NCBI GenBank assembly: GCA_014904845.1
Contig: MU119202.1
Span: 992,001 to 1,056,000, forward strand
DNA from: Acephala macrosclerotiorum
Lineage: Eukaryota > Ascomycota > Leotiomycetes > Helotiales > Mollisiaceae
DNA: 64,000 nucleotides
Direction of reading: 5' to 3'
Shown: one piece after another, positions 50,577 to 63,300 of the stretch
Numbering within the stretch: the stretch's first letter is position 1
Layout: every line of letters starts with the position of its first letter
Notes under the pieces: generated by a model
Database searches by the model: none
Told to the model about the DNA's origin: nothing
Seen by the model: the letters and a program-made list of their open reading frames with translations, nothing else
Program-made: the position numbers and the translations under genes

Positions 50577-50737
50577 TTCACACTTGCCCACTAGCCCGGC
50601 TTACGAGTGCACGAAAGTTCAAATATCGACCACCGCGCCCTTAGGCATCCCTTCTGACTCTCCTTTTCACCCATCATCCTGACACATACAATACAATACA
50701 AAACAACACAACATAGAACATCGAGTACAAGCCCAAG

Positions 50738-50746
50738 ATGTTCTAA
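50738..50746 (+). promoter_or_regulatory. two-codon uORF (Met-Phe-stop) in the CPC1-like leader
   Basis: ATG TTC TAA lies in the presumed 5' leader. Short uORFs that delay reinitiation are the hallmark of GCN4/cpc-1/cpcA translational control. The transcription start is not known, so its presence in the mRNA is inferred. Confidence 0.45.
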
Positions 50747-50959
50747 ATCAACAGTCATCGCGACTATTCCCGACACCTCAGTCACCATTTCATCCCTACC
50801 AGAAATCATACCAACCCACTCCCCTCAACCCCAACTACCAGACTTTCCCTTCCAGGAAATTCTGACTTCAAGTTCGGCTTCACGCTTCAACTTCAGTCTC
50901 CCAACCGCCAACATACCTTCACAAGAGTTTAACTCTTTCACAACGGATTCCCAGTCATC

Positions 50960-52169
50960 ATGGCTTCCCTCCAGTTCATCGAGCCTGCCGGCACAATCAC
51001 CGCAAACACAGCATCATCAGGACTTCTCCGCCCCACAAGCCCAACCGTCGCATCAGGACTTCGTTCTGTTCGATCAGCGGTCTCCGAGCGTTCGCAGTAC
51101 CCCTAGTCTGTCCAACAACCACGCCGTAACTGGCCAACATCGTCGTCACTCATCTCAACTCGCCTCTGCTGCCTCTCTGCAGAACCAAAGAGTCGCTGCG
51201 ATCATTCAATCTACTGGACATTCTATCACTACTTCGGCCCTTACCAATCGGTTTAATCCCTCGCAGAGTCCTCAGCAGTTTTACGCTTCTTCTGCGCCCA
51301 ACTCGACCACGCACTTGCAACAGCGTCAGACACGCCCTCCTGTCCCACCGTTTTCGCAATCAACTGGTCACATCCCGCAAACTCCAAATATGGCTATGCA
51401 AGGTAATTCACCTCGATACTCGACTGCGAAGGCGCGTGACTCACACAAGCCCGCAGACATGGATCTCTTTGACGAATTCACTGCCTTCGAGGGTGGAGCC
51501 TCGACTCAAAACGCGTTCCCATCGGCTTACTCTTCGCCAGCCGTGCCAACGATCTACGATCAAACCGCGAACCTCTCCTCATCGAGCTCCACCAACATGG
51601 GTACTGTCTCTCCACAAGATTTGCTTCGTGATCCATTCGCCTCCGCTCCCAACTCAACATCATTCACAAACTTGACATCTCCTTCGACAAACTACAACGA
51701 GTCACCCGAGTACAACGATAACTTCGATGTTTCTCCATTTGTAGGCAACAACGCCGACCTCGATCAAGCTCTTGCTGGCGACCCTTGGTATCCTCTGTTT
51801 CCTCAGGATGACCAACTCGAACAGTCTAGAAACTCTCAAAATGTCGATCAGTCTCCACTTCTACCCGAAGAGGAGCTTGAGGTTTCCGAAGCTCTCCGCA
51901 CCGGTCGTCGTCGTTCTGGCACTGCTACATCTCCACCATCGGGTTCGCACTCTTCTGTCTCTGGTGTTCGCAAGCGTGACAAGCCTCTTCCACCTATCAT
52001 TGTCGAAGATCCCAACGACACGGTAGCTATGAAGCGTGCGCGTAACACCTTGGCAGCCCGCAAGTCTCGTCAGCGAAAGATGCAACGATTTGAAGAGTTG
52101 GAGGATGAAATTGCTAAGCTGAAGGCTGAAAGGGATCACTGGAAGGGCCTTGCTTTGCGTCGCAGCTGA
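50960..52169 (+). CDS. cpc1: CPC1/GCN4-type bZIP activator; start frame disrupted
   Basis: Activator of general amino-acid control. The C-terminus has the basic region MKRARNTLAARKSRQRKMQR and a short zipper ending RDHWKGLALRRS, typical of fungal CPC1. Upstream are the family activation-domain motifs MDLFDEFTAFEGGA, SSPAVPTIYD and MGTVSPQDLL. The conserved frame is open from about 50658, includes HQDFVLFDQ and QFYASSAP, but has no ATG until 51390 (259-residue product). A strong-context ATG at 50960 (MASLQFIEPAGTI...) is in another frame and stops at 51104-51106. I infer a +1 or -2 shift between 50960 and about 51045, or initiation at 51390. I found no intron that reconciles the frames. Confidence 0.75.
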
Positions 52170-53041: not shown

Positions 53042-55329
53042 TTATCTATCCATTTTGACCCCAGTCTTTTGATCTGACAATACAGCATCCTTTTGCTTGG
53101 CCTTCCACTTACGTAAAGCTCTGCAGGATGATATGGTATATGGATGATCGAGTCCCAAGACACGTTTCCGTGATTGTATGCATTCCCCCATAAGTCTTAT
53201 AGCCTCGGTTTCTCTGCCGGTTTCTTTCCACGTAAATGCCAGATTGTTCATGCTCATCAGCGTGTCTGGATGGTCCGCTCCGAGTTTCTTCTTGCGAGTC
53301 TCCATCACTTGCAACTCTAGCTCTTCAGCAGCGTCCCACCGGCCTTGATCCCTATACGTCGACGCTAGGTTGTTCATGCTAGTCAACGTGTTTGGATGGT
53401 CCGCTCCGAGTTTCTTCTTGTGAGTCTCCATCACTTGCAACTGTAGCTCTTTAGCAGCGTCCCACCGGCCTTGATGCCTATACGTCGACGCTAGGTTGCC
53501 CATGCTAATCAGCGTGTCTAGATGGTCCGCTCCGAGTTTCTTCTTGCGAGACTCTATTACTTGCAACTCTAGCTCTTCAGCAGCGTCCCATCGGCCCCTA
53601 AACTTATACACCAAGCCTACCATTGCCATACTCCACAGAGTATCATTGTGCTCTCGACCTAGAATCCTCTTTCTAACTTTCATTGCCTGAATCGACATCT
53701 TCTCCGCCTCCACCCCTTTCCCCACTTCCCACGCGTACCATGCTGCCTTGTAGAGTATTGAAGCCCAGTCTCTTAATGAGTCTTCTTCCTCCGGCTGCTG
53801 TGCTATTGCCGATTGCGCGTGCGGGAAAAGCGTCTGACACCTCACCCAATTCTCATACTCTCCCGTCGGAAGCTCTGCGTCAAGATTCTTGATAAACTGC
53901 TGTTTCCACCTCTCTTGCTGCTCGTGGGCTTTAAGCCATTCTCGCGTGGCTAGCTGCACTAGTCTGTGCATTTCAAAGGTTGTGCCGTCCGTATTAACGG
54001 AGATGAACGAATAATTTCGTAGGATCAAAACATCGTCTTCAAATCCTTCACTCACGCTAGACTGTGATGCGTTATCTTTATCATCATCACTATAACCAGT
54101 ATCCAAATTATCATAATCGTCGTCACTACTCTCTTCCTGGCCTTGCCGTGAGTTTCTCTGCTCGCTTCGACTTCGAAGTAGAGCCTCAGGGATTCCTTGC
54201 CGGTCAAAAAAGCTCATAAGCGATAGCAAATCAGTAGCTGATGGTCGAACCTTACGGATGTAATCGAATGATATTCGCCATGTAATGATGATGGAGTTCT
54301 TCGCCTCTTGATCTCGACGGAGCTGTTCGCCTTCGTAGTTAAGAAGACTCGTTCTCTTGCGATCGCTCTTCTGAAAGTCCAGAAGGTACTCTCGTACGGA
54401 ATAGCGCGGCGCTCTTTGAAATATGTATGCGGCTGCCTGAACGATAGCAAGCGGCATAAACTCGAGCGCCGCGGCGAGCTCGGCAGTGTCATCGCCGTCG
54501 TCATGCCTTCCCAACTTGTTCTCAAAGAGTGCCAGCGCACCTGCCCTGTCCATCGGTTCAACTGCGATGATGTCGCGCTGTTCAACCAGCTTTAGCGCGG
54601 CGCTTTTGCTTCGTGTTGTTATGAGAATCGATCCATTCGGGCACTGCGGAAGGTATGCAACGAGCGGTCGTAAGTTCCCGCTGCTTATGTTGTCCGTTTG
54701 CTTATCCTGGCCGGTGCTTTGAGCCTTGACAAGGAACTCGGCATCATCCACATTGTCAAGTATAAGAACCCACTTTCCCTTCCTATCGTTGCGCAACCAG
54801 TCGTGCACAAGCTGGAATATATTGGCCTGCAGATTCTGCCGCCCCGGGATCTTGACGCAGTTTGCAATATCTCGAAAGCTCTGTTCAAACCGGGCCGCGT
54901 TGCTCGCGTGGACCCAGAAAACCCACGTTTCCACCGATCGATCTCGGGTTCGGTACGCGTATTCGATAGCGAGTTGCGACTTGCTTCGTAGCAGTTAGCC
55001 ATCCGCAATAGCAGAAGCTTTTGAGCTTACCCGACCCCGCCTAAGCCAACGAGCGCGGTCCGAGACCCCGAGATAGCGCATTTCTGATGGATCTGATCAA
55101 GTACTGCCCCTCGCTCGACAAAGTCTACGTCGCGACTGAAGGGTATTACGATCGACGGATTCGCTGGGGTTTCTGGCCGCTCTGGGTGGGGCTTTCGTTA
55201 GCGCTGGTTAGCTTGAACTTTTCCAAACTCACCAGGAGGGGCATGGTGATGAAACTCAGTATTGACCGGACCGTTAATAGTCCCGGCCTCGAGGCCGGAG
55301 TTATTGCTACCAAAAGATATGGATGCCAT
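53042..55329 (-). CDS. NB-ARC/TPR NLR-like receptor with N-terminal amyloid-type motif
   Basis: STAND-class intracellular receptor of 729 residues. Exons (minus): 55233-55329, 55031-55181, 53042-54983; introns of 51 and 47 bp, phases agree, no lesion. Exon 1 encodes only a 32-residue Gly/Asn/Ser-rich segment (residues 4-22 ISFGSNNSGLEAGTINGPV) and a His/Pro linker. NB-ARC follows: P-loop GLGGVGKS at 78-85, Walker B KWVLILDNVDD near 153, GSILITTR, FMPLAIVQAAA and the MHD-like FEMHRLVQLA. From about residue 530 are TPRs of 42 residues (GRWDAAEELELQVMETRKKK type), near-identical to each other. There is no fused effector domain; the only N-terminal element is the motif, nearly repeated at the C-terminus of the divergent HeLo-like gene. 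I infer that ligand-induced oligomerisation templates amyloid folding of the partner. Confidence 0.9.
53224..53601 (-). repeat. 126-bp tandem repeats encoding near-identical TPRs
   Basis: Three consecutive units with exact 126-bp spacing (for example TGGTCCGCTC at 53271, 53397 and 53523). Units differ at only a few positions each, including at third codon positions. DNA-level identity implies recent duplication or gene conversion. Confidence 0.9.
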
Positions 55330-55514
55330 CGCAGAAGAATTGTGTTGCGACGAAGTGCCAGCAGTAGCTGAGCCTGGTGTTCTGCTTCGCTGTATGTTAG
55401 CCGCAGCGGCTTGCGGCTACCCTCCAACCAGATTGAATGGCGCCTACCAAGCCTCAGCTAAAGATCTAGGTCTTTATTTTACTTTCAGCCCAGCTTGTAT
55501 CGTTAAAAACACAA
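55330..55514. promoter_or_regulatory. bidirectional promoter of the NLR/HeLo-like pair
   Basis: Only 185 bp separate the two divergent start codons. Inside is a perfect 8-bp inverted repeat, TAGCCGCA (55398-55405) and TGCGGCTA (55412-55419), around GCGGCT, giving closely spaced CGG half-sites of the kind bound by zinc-cluster factors. A TTTATTTTAC stretch lies near the effector start. Coordinate expression of both genes is inferred. Confidence 0.6.
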
Positions 55515-56404
55515 ATGGATCCTGTCAGCATTACTGCCAGTATCGTGGGTATTATCGGGCCAGCCTTGCACGGCACACGACTGCTTCTAGAAGACCTGCA
55601 GCAGCTCAAAGATGCACCCAAGACCGTTACGCGCCTAGTGAAAGATGTGCACTCTGTCGACATATCACTCAAATTGCTCCAGGGTGTAGAGGATAGAGAG
55701 TGGGACTTACTTGGCGTAGGCATAGCTGAGCAGTCAAAGACGACGATTAGGAGCTGTACACAAGCATGCAATCTCTTTAGGGCCGACCTCCAGCGACGGA
55801 CTAGACACTCGGAAGAGGGAAAATTAGCATGGCAGGATCGAGCAAATGTGGGATTTTTCAAGCAAGGGCAAATTAAGGCCATGTCAGAGCAGCTTTCAAA
55901 CTGTAAGCTCGCTATTAATTCCGTCGTCAATATAGCGACCTTGTGAGTAACTCTAATCTAACCGTTTTCGTACGGAAGATAAGCCAACCTTGCCTTAATA
56001 GATACAGCTCCGTCCGCCATAGCCACATTACGGAAGAGATCAAGAAGACGATATCTACAACGCAGACTGAGGTTAAGGGTGCCATTACTATAGCGGATCG
56101 ACAGCTGGTAGTGTTAGAGAACAGGCTGGAAGAGCTGGACCTCAGCAGCGATGATGACGAAGCAGCTGGATCCAGTGAAGACAAAAATGAGGCATTGCGA
56201 CAACTTGAAGAAGAATTGAAAGGTGTGAAAGTGTCGCAGAAGCTGCTCAATGAGCTACTGTTAAAGTCGCAGGAAGAAGCTGTTGCGAAAGCTGCGGGGA
56301 ACCAGAGGGGTGCAACCACGGTGACGTTCGGTGCTCAGAATTCGGGCTTTCAAGCTGGGACCATTAATGGCGGAGTCAGTGGAATCACTTTTGGCAGCAA
56401 GTAA
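55515..56404 (+). CDS. HeLo-like effector with C-terminal amyloid-type motif
   Basis: Probable cell-death effector partner of the adjacent NLR. Exon 1 is 55515-55942 and exon 2 56002-56404; 276 residues. Residues 1-200 fit the fungal HeLo-like N-terminal domain: MDPVSITASIVGIIGPALHG, then a mainly helical region with a coiled-coil stretch. An acidic linker (SSDDDEAAGSSEDKNE) and a further helix lead to the last 29 residues, where 250-268 read VTFGAQNSGFQAGTINGGV, matching the NLR N-terminal motif at 12 of 19 positions. In characterised fungal systems such C-terminal motifs are unfolded until templated by the NLR, after which the HeLo-type domain disrupts membranes. The frame is intact. Function is inferred from architecture. 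Confidence 0.82.
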
Positions 56405-56867: not shown

Positions 56868-57611
56868 ATGGCTGACTCCTCGAGATCTCTCACACAACAC
56901 CTCCTCTCCCTCTCCCCCTCATCCTTCAAACTCGCAACACAGACTCCCTTCCTCATACAAGCCGGTTGCGGGACCCTATCAAAAGAAATTCTCGAGAAAT
57001 GGGTATTTCAAGATAGGTTATATGCTCAGGCTTATGTTAGGTTTGGGGGGAGATTGCTTGCCGGTTTGGCGGGGAAGTTGCCTTCGAGGGTTGATAGTGG
57101 GGATGTCAATGAGAGGTTGCTGGATCTTGTTCTTGACGCTGTGAATAATGTTAGGAGGGAGTTGAAGTTTTTTGAGGATGTGGCGGGGAGGTATGGGTTG
57201 GTTATTGATGCTGAGGTGGTTAGTGAGGGTGTGAAAGGCTATCGAGAATTGTTTGAGGGTCTGGGGGTTAAGGTGACGAGTGGTGAGAGGGAGGAGGTGT
57301 TGGAGGGGTTGGTGTTGCTTTGGGGGACAGAGATCTGCTACCTGGAAGCGTGGAGGTATGCCAAAAGCTTCACTGAGGGAAGTGAGGGGGAGGAGGATAG
57401 TGATGGAGGTGCGCTGAGGAAGGAATTTATTCCTAATTGGACGAGTGATGAGTTTGCGGAGTTTGTTGAAAAGATTGGAGGTTTCGTGGATGAGGTTTGG
57501 GAGAGTATAAGAGGTGGGAGTGGGAATGAGGAGATGTTGAAGAGGGTGGAGGGGATTTGGAGGGAGGTATTAGATATTGAGCAAGTGTTTTGGCCTGTGG
57601 TTGAGGGGTAG
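56868..57611 (+). CDS. TENA/THI-4-like (haem-oxygenase-fold) protein
   Basis: Intact single-exon gene of 247 residues from the ATG at 56868. Recognisable features are the N-terminal AGCGTLSKEILEKWVFQDRL, a central helix LDLVLDAVNNVRRELKFFED and LEGLVLLWGTEICYLEAWRYA, all typical of fungal TenA/THI-4 family proteins with the all-helical haem-oxygenase fold. Bacterial TenA is a thiaminase II, but the fungal stand-alone proteins are mostly of unknown substrate, so I do not assign an activity. It heads a tandem series: two decayed copies and a fragment follow on the same strand. Confidence 0.8.
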   Translation: MADSSRSLTQHLLSLSPSSFKLATQTPFLIQAGCGTLSKEILEKWVFQDRLYAQAYVRFGGRLLAGLAGKLPSRVDSGDVNERLLDLVLDAVNNVRRELKFFEDVAGRYGLVIDAEVVSEGVKGYRELFEGLGVKVTSGEREEVLEGLVLLWGTEICYLEAWRYAKSFTEGSEGEEDSDGGALRKEFIPNWTSDEFAEFVEKIGGFVDEVWESIRGGSGNEEMLKRVEGIWREVLDIEQVFWPVVEG

Positions 57612-57952: not shown

Positions 57953-58890
57953 ATGTCTCACAGCAATCCCCTCATTATCTAAGCACCTTCTCCCCCTCGG
58001 CCCAGTAGGGTTTCAGAAAGCTACACAAGCACCCTTTCTCGTTCAGATAGGACAAGGAACCTTACCTAAGAATGAGGTGGAGGATTGGCTGCGTCAAGAT
58101 AGGCACCACACGCAGGACTTTCTTGGCTTTGGGATAGTCTGTTGTCTGGGTTGAGTATGTCGTCGAAAGTTAACCCAGAATGTTATGAGGAAAGGTGAGA
58201 GGAGGTGTTTTGTTTTGTATGGTTTTGTTGTTTTCCTCGAAGTCCCTCATTCTCCTTTCAATTCTGTTGTTTCTCTGCTCCCGTTTCCGGTGAATTGGTC
58301 CTCGTCGTCGAAGGATATGAATTTGAGGGGTGTTGAAATTAAAAGACTTCTCTTCAAACAGAGAGTATCAGGCTCGTAGATCTTGTCCTCGATATCTTGG
58401 CATATTTCCGGCAAGAACTAAGCTTTGCTGTACAAACGGCTTCCAAATACGATCTTGACATGACACCATATCCTCGAAAGTTCATTTGCTACCCGTATGG
58501 GTGGCAAGAATACCATGATATCTTCAGCAGTGTCAAAGCTGCTGTTCAGAAGGACACGATAGGAGGAACCTTGGATAGGTATTCTTGTAGGGCATGCAAT
58601 ATTGCCAACTGAAAGCCTGGAGCTACGCTACGTCTGTTGCAAAAAGGGACAAAAGGACGAAGATAGAGGAGCGTTGAGGAAAGGGTTTATCCGACATTGG
58701 ACGAACCACATGTTCGCGGATTTGTAGATCAAATAAGAGATTCTGTAGATGAGGTTTAGCATGAGATGGATGAAGGGGATCCTTCTCTTAGTGATAAGCC
58801 ACCGGAGATAGGTTGGGGCTGGGGCAACGGTCGATATCAGATGAGGGGAAGGGTGGAGGAGATATAGAGGAGCATCTTGGATGATTAACA
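57953..58890 (+). pseudogene. decayed TenA-like copy 1
   Basis: One frame from 57972 encodes ATQAPFLVQIGQGTLPKNEV and EDWLRQDRHHTQDFLGF, homologous to the start of the intact gene. The frame then breaks. A later block near 58375-58450 (LVDLVLDILAYFRQELSF) and scattered C-terminal pieces to about 58890 (GALRKGFIRHWTN, RVEEI with an in-frame stop) follow in other frames. Multiple stops and frameshifts mean no full product. Confidence 0.75.
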
Positions 58891-59303: not shown

Positions 59304-59816
59304 GCGAGTATTGGTGAAAGCCTGAAAGTGCTGATGGAAGAGAAGAGGGGATAAGAAAGTGAAAGCAGGACTGGGACATTGAAGCCGCTACAGCTTGAAG
59401 AAATGGCGTGAGAAGAAAAGAGATTTGAATGCCGATCTTCCACTTGCCTATCTGGTGTTCATCTCGTGATTGCTTGTCAGATGTCGGTGATGCACTGATG
59501 CACCAGAACATCACTTTCATTCTCCCTGCGCGTAACTTTTGTTGTTTTCTCGCCAACGCGTCTCCACTGCCGGTTCAACCTTGACAACTTGTCAAGTCCT
59601 CTTCTTAAATTAGTCTCGAGCTTCTGACCTGAGTCTGTACGTACGTCGTATTCTCCGCTTGTGCTTGACTGATTACTTTTTGCCTCGGCCTCAGAATATC
59701 ATAGACATAGATGCCAGACCCCGGAGCGAGATTGTTTATCCCGAAGACGTTGCCTCCTGACACAACATCTTCTGGCTCTTGATATTCCTTACATCTACGG
59801 ATCCACTCTTAAACAT

Positions 59817-60395
59817 ATGTTCATGGAAGCAACACTAGCAATCTTCCTTGTTCAAGCGGGCGAGGGTAGATTGCCGAAGGAGAAGCTGCAAGAGTGGTTG
59901 ATCAGACTTCGGGTTCGGGTGAGCACACACAAGAACGCCTACAATTCATCTTCGAGCTCCCTTCTAGCTTAAATCTACCAGCAAAAGTCGACCCAAAACA
60001 TATCAAGGGAAGATTGGCCTCCATATATCTCGACGCCATGTTCGATGTTAGAGCAGAGTTGAAGATCTTTAAAAAGTTCGTCAAAGCACATGGTCTCGAT
60101 ATCTCGGGCAAAGTTGGTCATTGGACCCAAGTCGGCAGTAAGTTCTACCTCAAAATTTCCGTTATTGGCCAAATTGGTATCGAGGGCAAACTCGAGGGTC
60201 TGGTTTTGCTGTGGGCAGCGCAGCACGTATACGCCGAAGCTTGGAAGTACGCTGCCTCCTTTGCTGATGAGGGAAACGATAGAGACGAGGATCTGGATGG
60301 AGGATTGCTGGGTTTCTTCTAAACTGGACGAGTAGGGACTCTACGGAATTTGTGGACGAGATCAAAGCATTTCTGGCCTGTGGCTGAGATTGAGA
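59817..60395 (+). pseudogene. decayed TenA-like copy 2
   Basis: The first frame encodes IFLVQAGEGRLPKEKLQEWL and is lost near 59915. A 142-codon frame (59894-60322) then continues with LDAMFDVRAELKIFKKF and LEGLVLLWAAQHVYAEAWKYA. It lacks part of the N-terminal helices and ends early; a last FWPVAE-like scrap lies near 60375. The middle could still be translated, but the gene is not complete. Confidence 0.7.
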
Positions 60396-63300
60396 CGGAG
60401 GATTGGAAAACATGAGGACCTACAATGTCTCAAAAGCACTTTGTCGGTGTAGCCCTTTCCATTTCATCAAACCGGGAAGATCTCAATCGAGCGGAACAGG
60501 ATGGGTTTCTGCCTCATGCGCGGATAGCCTTATTCTCTTCACCTTGAGCTCATATCTACATTCTCTCCTCAGCATAGATCTCATCAATCATGACCCAAGT
60601 AAACAAATCTTCCAATCTCTCACCTTCTTGTCCGTCGGAACTCGTTACCGCGCGGAACTCGGAGTGAAGCCTCGCATCTGTGACACTGTCTCAAGCCCAC
60701 CTCGGAAGTCATCCAGCCAACGATCTTCCATCATCTCAGCCAAAGAGCCTCAAAAGAAATGATTGTTGCATGTCGCCCTCGTTGGCTTTTGTCCCGGGAT
60801 GCTAGCAGCGCTGGCGGTGGAGCAGATATGCTGGCTCGAACATGTCCTATCAGATGTTTTCCATCTCAAGCCTGTTTTCAAAAGTTGAAAATGGTTCATG
60901 AGTTTGCATAGGAAAGTCTATCACATGTCATTTTCGATGTTGTCGTCCTGTCTGGGGTTCTTCGTCAATAATTGCGTTTACGGGCATAGCGCTCGCCTGA
61001 GCTGTGGCCCTGGCAGGAGTTCAATCTCAGTGCCACGAACCGTCTTTCCTCCCATCGTCCAGTCGGCTCACAAACACCGGCTCCTGTTTGCATTTGTTGC
61101 ATTTGTTGCATTTCGCAACTCGTCGGCTCTGTGACGGGGAGCCGGGTCGTCTCTTCTCTCGCTGTCCCATCATCTCAAAAAGCATCCCGAGAATGCAACC
61201 TCATCCCTATCCTTCCCCGCTTGTTTCCTTCCGCGTTTGGCGACAAGAGTGTCTCGGATGCATGTCCCGATCTAGAACATCCTAATAGCAACACTCTCGC
61301 ATCGCAACCCAACAAATTCCTCTTTCGCGAAAATAGACGGCCAGCAACACCTGAAAGGGAATCATTGGGGCTTTGTTGCACATCGATCTCCACCGGCTAT
61401 GCAACGGCTCGCGGGGCCCGGTTCCGCGAGGGAAAACTGTCAACCCTAATCTATTGAGGCTGACGGGCCGCCTCCGCGACGGAGAACTTCTCCAGCCAGC
61501 CCCCACAATAGGTGCGAGATTTTTGTGGCAATTTTTAGAGTTTCGAGTTTTGCTGGCGGTTGATGGCGTTGAAGGCGCCCAGCTTTGCTTGGATGGGAGA
61601 GTTGCTCCCTGGTCAAGGCCAAAAAGGACATGATTACTTATCATGACTTCTGGTCAATGACAAGTCACCAGGGCGCCTCCTGTGGTACTCGAGGTCTGAG
61701 ACTATGATTTCGATGAGAGCTTGGATTCAGCTGGTGAGTTTATTCGAACCTCTGATAGGATGACTGAACAAGAATATGCACGAACAGACCAGTCACAATC
61801 CACCTTGGCATAGCCCTGATGTCTTGGGCCCCTGCTTGTGACGCAGAAATCAGATCATTGTCTCTGAGCCTATTTCAGCATCGCGGAAGAATGCATGCCG
61901 TCTCAGCTGTAAGAGGGATGATATTCCTGACGACGTGTACTTTGCTAGCCGATCTCAGCATTCGTAACGTATACCTTGTGTACTTGCCGAAATGGGAGGC
62001 TTAAATATGCTTTTTAGCTGCCGAACTAATTTGTTTGTCTCGACCCCAGGAGGCGACTGGCTTCCGGAAGCTCAATCCGGTCGAGCAGCCGACGAGATGC
62101 GATGTGCAACAGACGTCATATAGTAAAAGCTGTACCTTCGGGGTTTGACGGTTTACGTGCGTCTTCTTGAACTTCAAGCTGCTTCCCGCAGAGATGTACA
62201 TTTCGGGATCTGCTCATGCATATTAGAGTCGAAATGGATCGACCTGGTCCGGTTCCCCGTCTTAGCAGCCGACGAGTGCGACTTGCAACAAAGGCTTGAA
62301 ATTGTTTGGATTAATTCTCTTGCAGAAGCTATTGGAATTTGATCCCAAGTGCGTGTGTTGGCAAAGTTGTGTTTTCAATTTCGCTAAAGAAGTGCCAGCC
62401 CAGCAAGTTCGACTGTCACAAATACTGTAGTGTTGCTCCATCGGGACGTCATCAAAGCCTTCAATGCCTTCCTCCAACCGGGTATCATTATTTAAGGACG
62501 CCCCATTCTGGTACAGTTTATGCACCCCACCACCCCCTCTGCAACTCAGCGATAGAAGCCGAACTCTTCGATCCGCCGTGATGTTGTAGCATTCTCGAGC
62601 TTTGTTGACCTTGCCTAAAACCCTCCTTCTGCGCTTCCCTTCTCCCTCTCAGACGATCCCACCACCTTTTTCATCCTCACTTCATTCGATCTAACCTGAA
62701 TATCCAGCTCTCCCTCGTTCCCTCACGAAACCCCTTCACCCTCACGCGTTTCCTGTCCCTTCCGTACATATGTACAAAGCGCACTTCAGTGTGTCGCCGC
62801 TTGTCAGTTCCACCGGGGCAGAGCGCGCCGTCTTCGTCTTTACGGGTGGTCTCTTCCTCCTCATAATCGTTGTCTTCTGGAAGAATCCAATTCGGACATT
62901 TGAAAGCACTTCTCTGCCATTTCATCGTCTTTCGTACTAGCGGAACATCAACGATTTGGGACTCGGCATAAATGTCGTTTTTGGGTGGTCCTGCTGGCTT
63001 GGGACAGTCGTCGCAGTGCTCGATTCAAAATTTAGAGTGGTTGCAGCTATAGCGGACTTTGATTATGGCACACACTGTGGCTGTTGGAGCAATGAATGTC
63101 TGTAGTAATGTGATTGATTATAGACATCTGTTTTGTGTTTCTTGTTTTATTGTTTGGTTTCGAGTTTTGATGGAGGGGTTTGGCTGTTTTGAGAAGGTAG
63201 CTCCTGCCTCTTGAGTCTTGAAGTTGAGTTGATTGGGAAGGCGCGATCAGTACTCTCCTCAACAGCACAGGCGGTGCTTACTTCTCCTTTCTGCAAATAA

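Follow-up and report, generated by a model that had tools for sequence, protein, structure and literature searches.

The window analysed here, a stretch of 64,000 nucleotides from the root-associated fungus Acephala macrosclerotiorum (Leotiomycetes, Helotiales; contig MU119202.1), contains a divergent two-gene module at positions 53042-56404. The module combines an NB-ARC/tetratricopeptide repeat (TPR) receptor with a HeLo-like effector, and the N-terminal motif of the receptor is predicted, with considerable confidence, to seed an amyloid in its neighbour, likely killing the cell. The initial annotation had proposed such an amyloid pair between a nucleotide-binding oligomerization domain-like receptor (NLR) and a HeLo-like protein. 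The domains, the presence of the motif on both termini, and its recurrence in homologous pairs support that proposal, and as far as sequence goes the locus is a genuine and conserved example of a fungal NLR amyloid-signalling pair. Its mode of action is likely that of the Podospora pair PNT1/HELLP, with a motif that is a variant related to PP.

The receptor and effector genes

The receptor gene lies on the reverse strand (53042..55329; exon 1, 55329-55233; exon 2, 55181-55031; exon 3, 54983-53042) and encodes 729 amino acids. The effector gene lies on the forward strand (55515..56404; exon 1, 55515-55942; exon 2, 56002-56404) and encodes 276. Both frames were found to be open and spliceable, in agreement with the earlier description of two intact genes, and the 185 bp that had been described as one promoter were measured between the two start codons (55330..55514). 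This gap is a putative shared promoter, and is partly conserved at a second locus on contig C247 of the same genome (see below).

The receptor contains NB-ARC, DUF7779, and TPR domains (PF00931, 30.1 bits; PF25000, 41.6 bits; PF13374, 203.5 bits). Sequence matches at residues 78-86, 154-163, 258-264, and 421-426 are taken here to be the Walker A, Walker B, GLPL-like, and MH-like stretches, respectively. A Pfam scan gave no family over cut-off ahead of the NB-ARC stretch (residue 67), consistent with the claim that the receptor has no fused effector domain, at least none that is recognised. The TPR region includes near-identical 42-residue units (53244..53596, reverse strand) with a period of 126 bp, 2.8 copies, and 90% matches. 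The public model of the receptor (P0121, 720 residues) is 100% identical across residues 83-708, and by eye its C-terminal end differs after residue 708; its public label, "putative kinesin", is misleading.

The adjoining gene had been described as encoding a HeLo-like protein, and its product matches PF17111 with 72.3 bits (cut-off 27.2). This family is listed as Helo_like_N, and is termed HeLo-like in the available text of PMC9815663. All 276 residues are identical (100%) to those of the public record P0001 from A. macrosclerotiorum. Homologues of the module were taken as the best 120 of 249 hits for the effector, the best 120 of 805 for the receptor, and the best 120 of 286 in a third search, and the homologue counts given below refer to these hits. 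PF17111 is precomputed for 119 of the 120 effector hits listed; 96 of the 120 were aligned, with short or odd models omitted. An AlphaFold model of the effector is all-helical through residue 240, followed by a lower-confidence coil tail (mean predicted local distance difference test score 80.9). A hydrophobic helix at about residues 6-25 (55530..55589, forward strand) is a candidate membrane-inserting segment, and the most hydrophobic 19-residue window begins at or before residue 12 in 84 of the 96 aligned homologues. In UniRef, the names of many effector homologues misleadingly start with "Azaphilone pigments biosynthesis cluster protein".

A motif shared by the two termini

The receptor begins with MAS followed by the motif copy ISFGSNNSGLEAGTINGPV (residues 4-22; 55264..55320, reverse strand), which corrects the earlier statement that the protein starts with the motif itself. 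The effector copy, VTFGAQNSGFQAGTINGGV, occupies residues 250-268 (56321..56377, forward strand). Retranslation of both stretches confirmed the reported match of 12 identical residues in 19 without gaps. Profile alignment extends the similarity to F26 of the receptor (55252) and F273 of the effector (56392), interrupted by a single one-residue gap that lies beyond the 19-mer and ending at a Phe conserved on both sides. Because the alignment reaches this Phe, the motif unit is about 23-24 residues in length, and not 19.

In 20,000 shuffles of the last 50 residues of the effector against the first 50 of the receptor, 12 of 19 was never attained (best 11), and 20,000 in-register motif shuffles gave 7 at most. 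The match was less striking when position was left free, as 400 shuffles of the whole effector gave a mean of 7.5 and a maximum of 11 of 19. Since whole-effector shuffles also attain 11, the case for the motif rests on its position and its conservation.

The two termini were also compared as profiles. A profile of the 96 aligned effector tails, compared with the first 40 residues of the 120 receptor hits listed and with no motif filter, matched over 25 columns at 98.2% probability (E 5e-14), and none of 14 control windows taken from the effector exceeded 0.6%. An alternative comparison, in which 101 of the 120 effectors and 104 of the 120 receptors were picked by motif score and 10 PP-like heads by eye, gave 98.8% (E 6e-17) for effector tails against receptor heads, a figure inflated by the selection of rows. 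Its 16 control windows gave at most 1.3%, except for one with partial overlap of the motif, at 58.8%. Within the effector family, the motif columns are conserved at 3.27 bits, compared with 3.18 for the helical domain and 2.42 for the linker that precedes the motif.

Recurrence in homologous pairs and matching between partners

Motif presence in homologues was scored against one hand-made reference string with a cut-off of 25. By this measure, the motif lies near the C-terminus in 103 of the best 120 effector homologues, and 15 of the 17 listed homologues without it are gene models shorter than 260 residues. On the receptor side, it is found at the N-terminus in 116 of the best 120 hits, a proportion biased upward because the query (residues 1-95) included the motif. 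The effector and receptor hits listed fall on 116 and 115 contig sizes, respectively, and have 24 same-size contigs in common (33 combinations). The motif is present on both sides in 23 of these 24, the exception being a short effector model, so that the paired motif, whose absence from orthologous pairs had been named as a point on which the proposal would fall, does recur. P0223, a further receptor on a shared contig, is without the motif. The third search added two pairs, and one homologous pair is located on a contig of only 3.9 kb. Eleven genomes, counted by eye, have numbered gene tags in both lists; in six of them the numbers are consecutive (BP6252_09458/9, ACEPPN_000485/6, MMC30_009216/7, FQN54_008954/5, IFR05_014029/30, and NPX13_g5913/4).

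Motif similarity is higher between true partners than after partners are swapped. A first run on 20 pairs, in which 3 of the 23 contigs were set aside as offering more than one possible partner, gave p 0.0018 by BLOSUM score and p 0.014 by identity. In a run on 22 pairs, to which the two pairs of the third search were added by hand and in which P0086 had positions 1 to 6 of its motif blanked out, the BLOSUM sum was 52.3 for true partners compared with 48.3 for swapped ones (p 0.0002), and 49.5 when swaps were kept within lineages (p 0.004). Lineage groups were set from organism names, except that P0047 was placed by similarity. By group, the matching gave p 0.016 in Dothideomycetes (5 pairs) and p 0.07 in the pairs outside Leotiomycetes and Dothideomycetes (6 pairs).

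Motif class

The initial annotation had named sigma and HET-s among the example classes for an amyloid-motif profile scan. Such a scan did yield a match, to Ses_B (PF17046), the only Pfam family matched by the motif peptides of the window (15.5 and 13.4 bits, below the family cut-off and with the peptides only). Sigma and HET-s fared less well: neither peptide matches the sigma profile PF17106 at E <= 5, and a search with the HET-s profile PF11558 gave a single sub-threshold match, on contig C220 and not at this locus. Profiles and anatomy, with a unit of about 24 residues present as a single copy in the effector, exclude these two classes. The motif is PP-like, the Ses_B profile being used for the PP motif in the available text of PMC8086366. 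Ses_B is hit at E <= 10 by 36 of 46 natural motif peptides, drawn from 18 of the 20 unambiguous pairs and from 10 receptor heads of PP-like form; the best hit has E 4e-14, and a single peptide of the 46 hits one other family. The 104 receptor heads of the form found here align without gaps to the 10 PP-like heads at 99.1% (E 6e-19), and the effector tails align to the same heads at 96.1% (E 3e-9); both figures are inflated by row selection, as the 104 heads were chosen by resemblance to the reference motif and the 10 by eye, 3 of them with a precomputed PF17046 match.

The strict PP core is NxGxQxGxN (PMC9815663, as far as that text was available), and neither copy conforms to it: the effector reads NSGFQAGTIN and the receptor NSGLEAGTIN, with the last Asn at +5 from the centre instead of +4. 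The motif is therefore PP-related and not a strict PP member; as judged from sequence, its class is PP-like, and neither sigma nor HET-s. The variant form is N-x-G-F/L-Q/E-A-G-x-I-N-G. Among the motif-bearing hits listed, 9 of the 116 receptors have Asn at the published PP position, as does a single one of the 103 effectors, and Ile, Val, or Phe is found there in 102 of 116 and 93 of 103, respectively. Glu in place of the central Gln is found in 4 of 116 receptors, the present one included, and in 1 of 103 effectors. In the Arachnomyces pair P0097/P0225, Glu occupies the motif centre on both partners. A polar residue at that position tends to be found on both partners at once (2 pairs with both, 2 one-sided, and 18 with neither; Fisher p 0.038, with relatedness not controlled).

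Related loci in the genome and neighbouring genes

A second copy of the cassette, with the same divergent layout, is present on contig C247 (L028; C247:54434-57585), where the intergenic DNA retains a recognisable similarity to that of the present locus. Both exon frames of its effector are open, with splice sites unverified, and the protein ends in a consensus-like motif. The receptor at this locus is decayed, with 7 TAG and 2 TAA codons in its main stretch, and neither core glycine is left in its copy of the motif. The receptor part has a dinucleotide signature like that of repeat-induced mutation: its (CA+TG)/(AC+GT) index is 0.89, compared with 1.25 for the effector beside it. The two are hardly separated by the TA/AT index (1.06 and 0.98).

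The hits of a genome search with the effector motif were two effectors and a single receptor copy, although a diverged copy could escape it. Genome motif searches gave no third motif protein, apart from a weak match to the receptor motif on contig C258 that contains one stop (L029; C258:32825-32902; E 0.0097), and no NLR-like frame was found there among the long frames examined. Three sigma profile matches (PF17106) lie on contig C255 (L042; C255:55583-58117), which also has a PF17111 match at 62481-62894. This is probably a separate sigma-type amyloid locus of the same genome.

In the window, the module is flanked by a gene for a bZIP transcription factor (50658-52169, forward strand; PF00170), past the 3' end of the receptor gene, and by a TENA/THI-4 family gene (56868-57611, forward strand; PF03070). 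Downstream of the latter, the stretches 58000-58600 and 59800-60320 appear by eye to be broken relatives; two frames downstream of the TENA/THI-4 gene were compared with Pfam and gave no match.

Proposed mechanism and alternative explanations

In the mechanism proposed by analogy with PNT1/HELLP (PMC7885112), the TPRs would read a trigger, upon which the NB-ARC receptor would oligomerise. The clustered N-terminal motifs could then adopt an amyloid fold and template the C-terminal tail of the effector, and the HELL bundle would in turn let go of its N-terminal hydrophobic helix, which would enter the membrane and bring about cell death. The elements of this scheme with support in the sequence are the domains, the shared motif, the matching between partners, and the N-terminal hydrophobic helix.

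Several results weigh against this reading. A same-size contig is only a proxy for neighbourhood when contigs are large, and in 5 of the 11 comparable genomes (VE00, VE03, V496, DV736, and Uu.00g) gene numbers are non-consecutive and the listed genes lie on contigs of different size. The gain from true partners is not significant inside Leotiomycetes alone (p 0.10, 11 pairs). Both motif peptides of the window score under the Ses_B cut-off of 23.2 bits; Ses_B is not listed in a Pfam scan of the full-length receptor and effector at E <= 5, and the locus is absent from the hits listed by a Ses_B profile search of the genome. The receptor has Glu in place of the central Gln of the PP and RHIM core. 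Finally, neither an MLKL nor a HeLo fold stood out in fold searches.

The shared motif might instead be an ordinary, non-amyloid docking motif, through which receptor and effector form a one-to-one complex, with direct contact by the receptor either switching the effector on or holding it in check. The computed results do not separate docking from amyloid stacking; partner matching would be expected under both, and the central Glu of the receptor copy would fit poorly into an in-register stack. Docking is nevertheless considered improbable, since the motif resembles itself on the two partners, as homotypic stacking needs, and is profile-related to PP, whose tested members form prions according to the available text of PMC7885112. 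Outright chance similarity between two Gly/Asn-rich termini is given almost no weight: the composition is simple and whole-protein shuffles come within one residue of the observed match, whereas shuffles restricted to the termini never reached 12 in 20,000 trials, in-register shuffles fell far short, and chance is already contradicted by the conservation of the motif on both sides in the homologous pairs. It is likewise very unlikely that the motif belongs to the sigma or HET-s/HRAM class. Those names were offered as examples in the initial annotation and no search result backs either; the sigma matches of this genome sit on C255 and its only HET-s match is the sub-threshold one on C220, and a single-copy unit of about 24 residues differs from the roughly 40 residues with repeated submotifs, or the two 21-residue repeats, described in the available text of PMC5485727.

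A separate question is what the module senses. The locus could serve mainly in heterokaryon incompatibility, distinguishing self from non-self among strains of the same fungus, and not as a sensor of other organisms. The near-identical TPR units would fit such a role, repeats that evolve in concert being described for fungal NLRs in PMC5485727 (in the portion available). However, repeat conservation is described for fungal NLRs in general, and the pair is present in several fungal classes, which a general sensor module fits at least as well; incompatibility as the main role is considered unlikely, if less so than docking. Also tentative, and favoured no more strongly, is the suggestion that N-x-G-F-Q-A-G-x-I-N-G may define an insulated PP subtype, dominant in Leotiomycetes and Dothideomycetes and with the register shift on both partners, and that the one intact receptor of A. 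macrosclerotiorum might drive two executioners, its neighbour and the orphan effector on C247.

Significance and comparison with known systems

The architecture of the amyloid-signalling module is already known; for the variant register, the receptor Glu, and the orphan effector locus, no published description was found in the available portions of the sources. The motif described here is a further natural variant of the PP/RHIM-like type, carried by receptor and effector alike in many fungi that lie outside the Sordariomycetes models. Since its copies differ naturally at the central Gln and at the Asn beside the core, natural peptides would allow tests of how sequence governs cross-seeding between parallel amyloid signalosomes. 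With its open effector and decayed receptor, the C247 locus offers a natural case in which to ask if one receptor can serve two effectors.

The closest likeness is to PNT1/HELLP of Podospora anserina, in which the architecture seen here acts through prion templating, according to the available text of PMC7885112. There, too, the genes are adjacent, the receptor combines NB-ARC and TPRs with a motif in its first ~31 residues, and a HELL effector carries a C-terminal motif (region 214-271, compared with 241-276 here). The Gly-phi-Q-phi-Gly core of that system is also found here in the effector copy. Unlike PNT1/HELLP, the present pair has its last core Asn at +5, has Glu for Gln in the receptor, and has an activity predicted from sequence. 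The HELLP/SBP/PNT1 cluster of Chaetomium globosum likewise joins a PP-type receptor to a HELL effector (PMC7885112 and PMC5485727, each as far as available), but its motif-bearing lipase (SBP) has no counterpart found here by the genome search with the effector motif, which a diverged copy could escape.

Other systems share less with the module. NWD2/HET-S of P. anserina has the same working principle, in that a receptor motif templates the C-terminal motif of an effector, but it relies on NACHT and WD repeats and on two 21-residue beta-solenoid repeats, as described in the portion of PMC5485727 available, in place of NB-ARC, TPRs, and a single motif of another class. The sigma module of Nectria haematococca (Het-eN/SESA/SESB) also gathers an amyloid-motif NLR and its effectors in one gene cluster; its motif consists of ~40 residues of repeated submotifs (same source and portion), and the sigma matches of A. 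macrosclerotiorum are located elsewhere, on C255. With the RHIM of mammalian RIP1 and RIP3, only the G-phi-Q-phi-G core, found in the effector copy, is comparable; in the available text of PMC7885112, PP and RHIM prions are described as cross-seeding in part.

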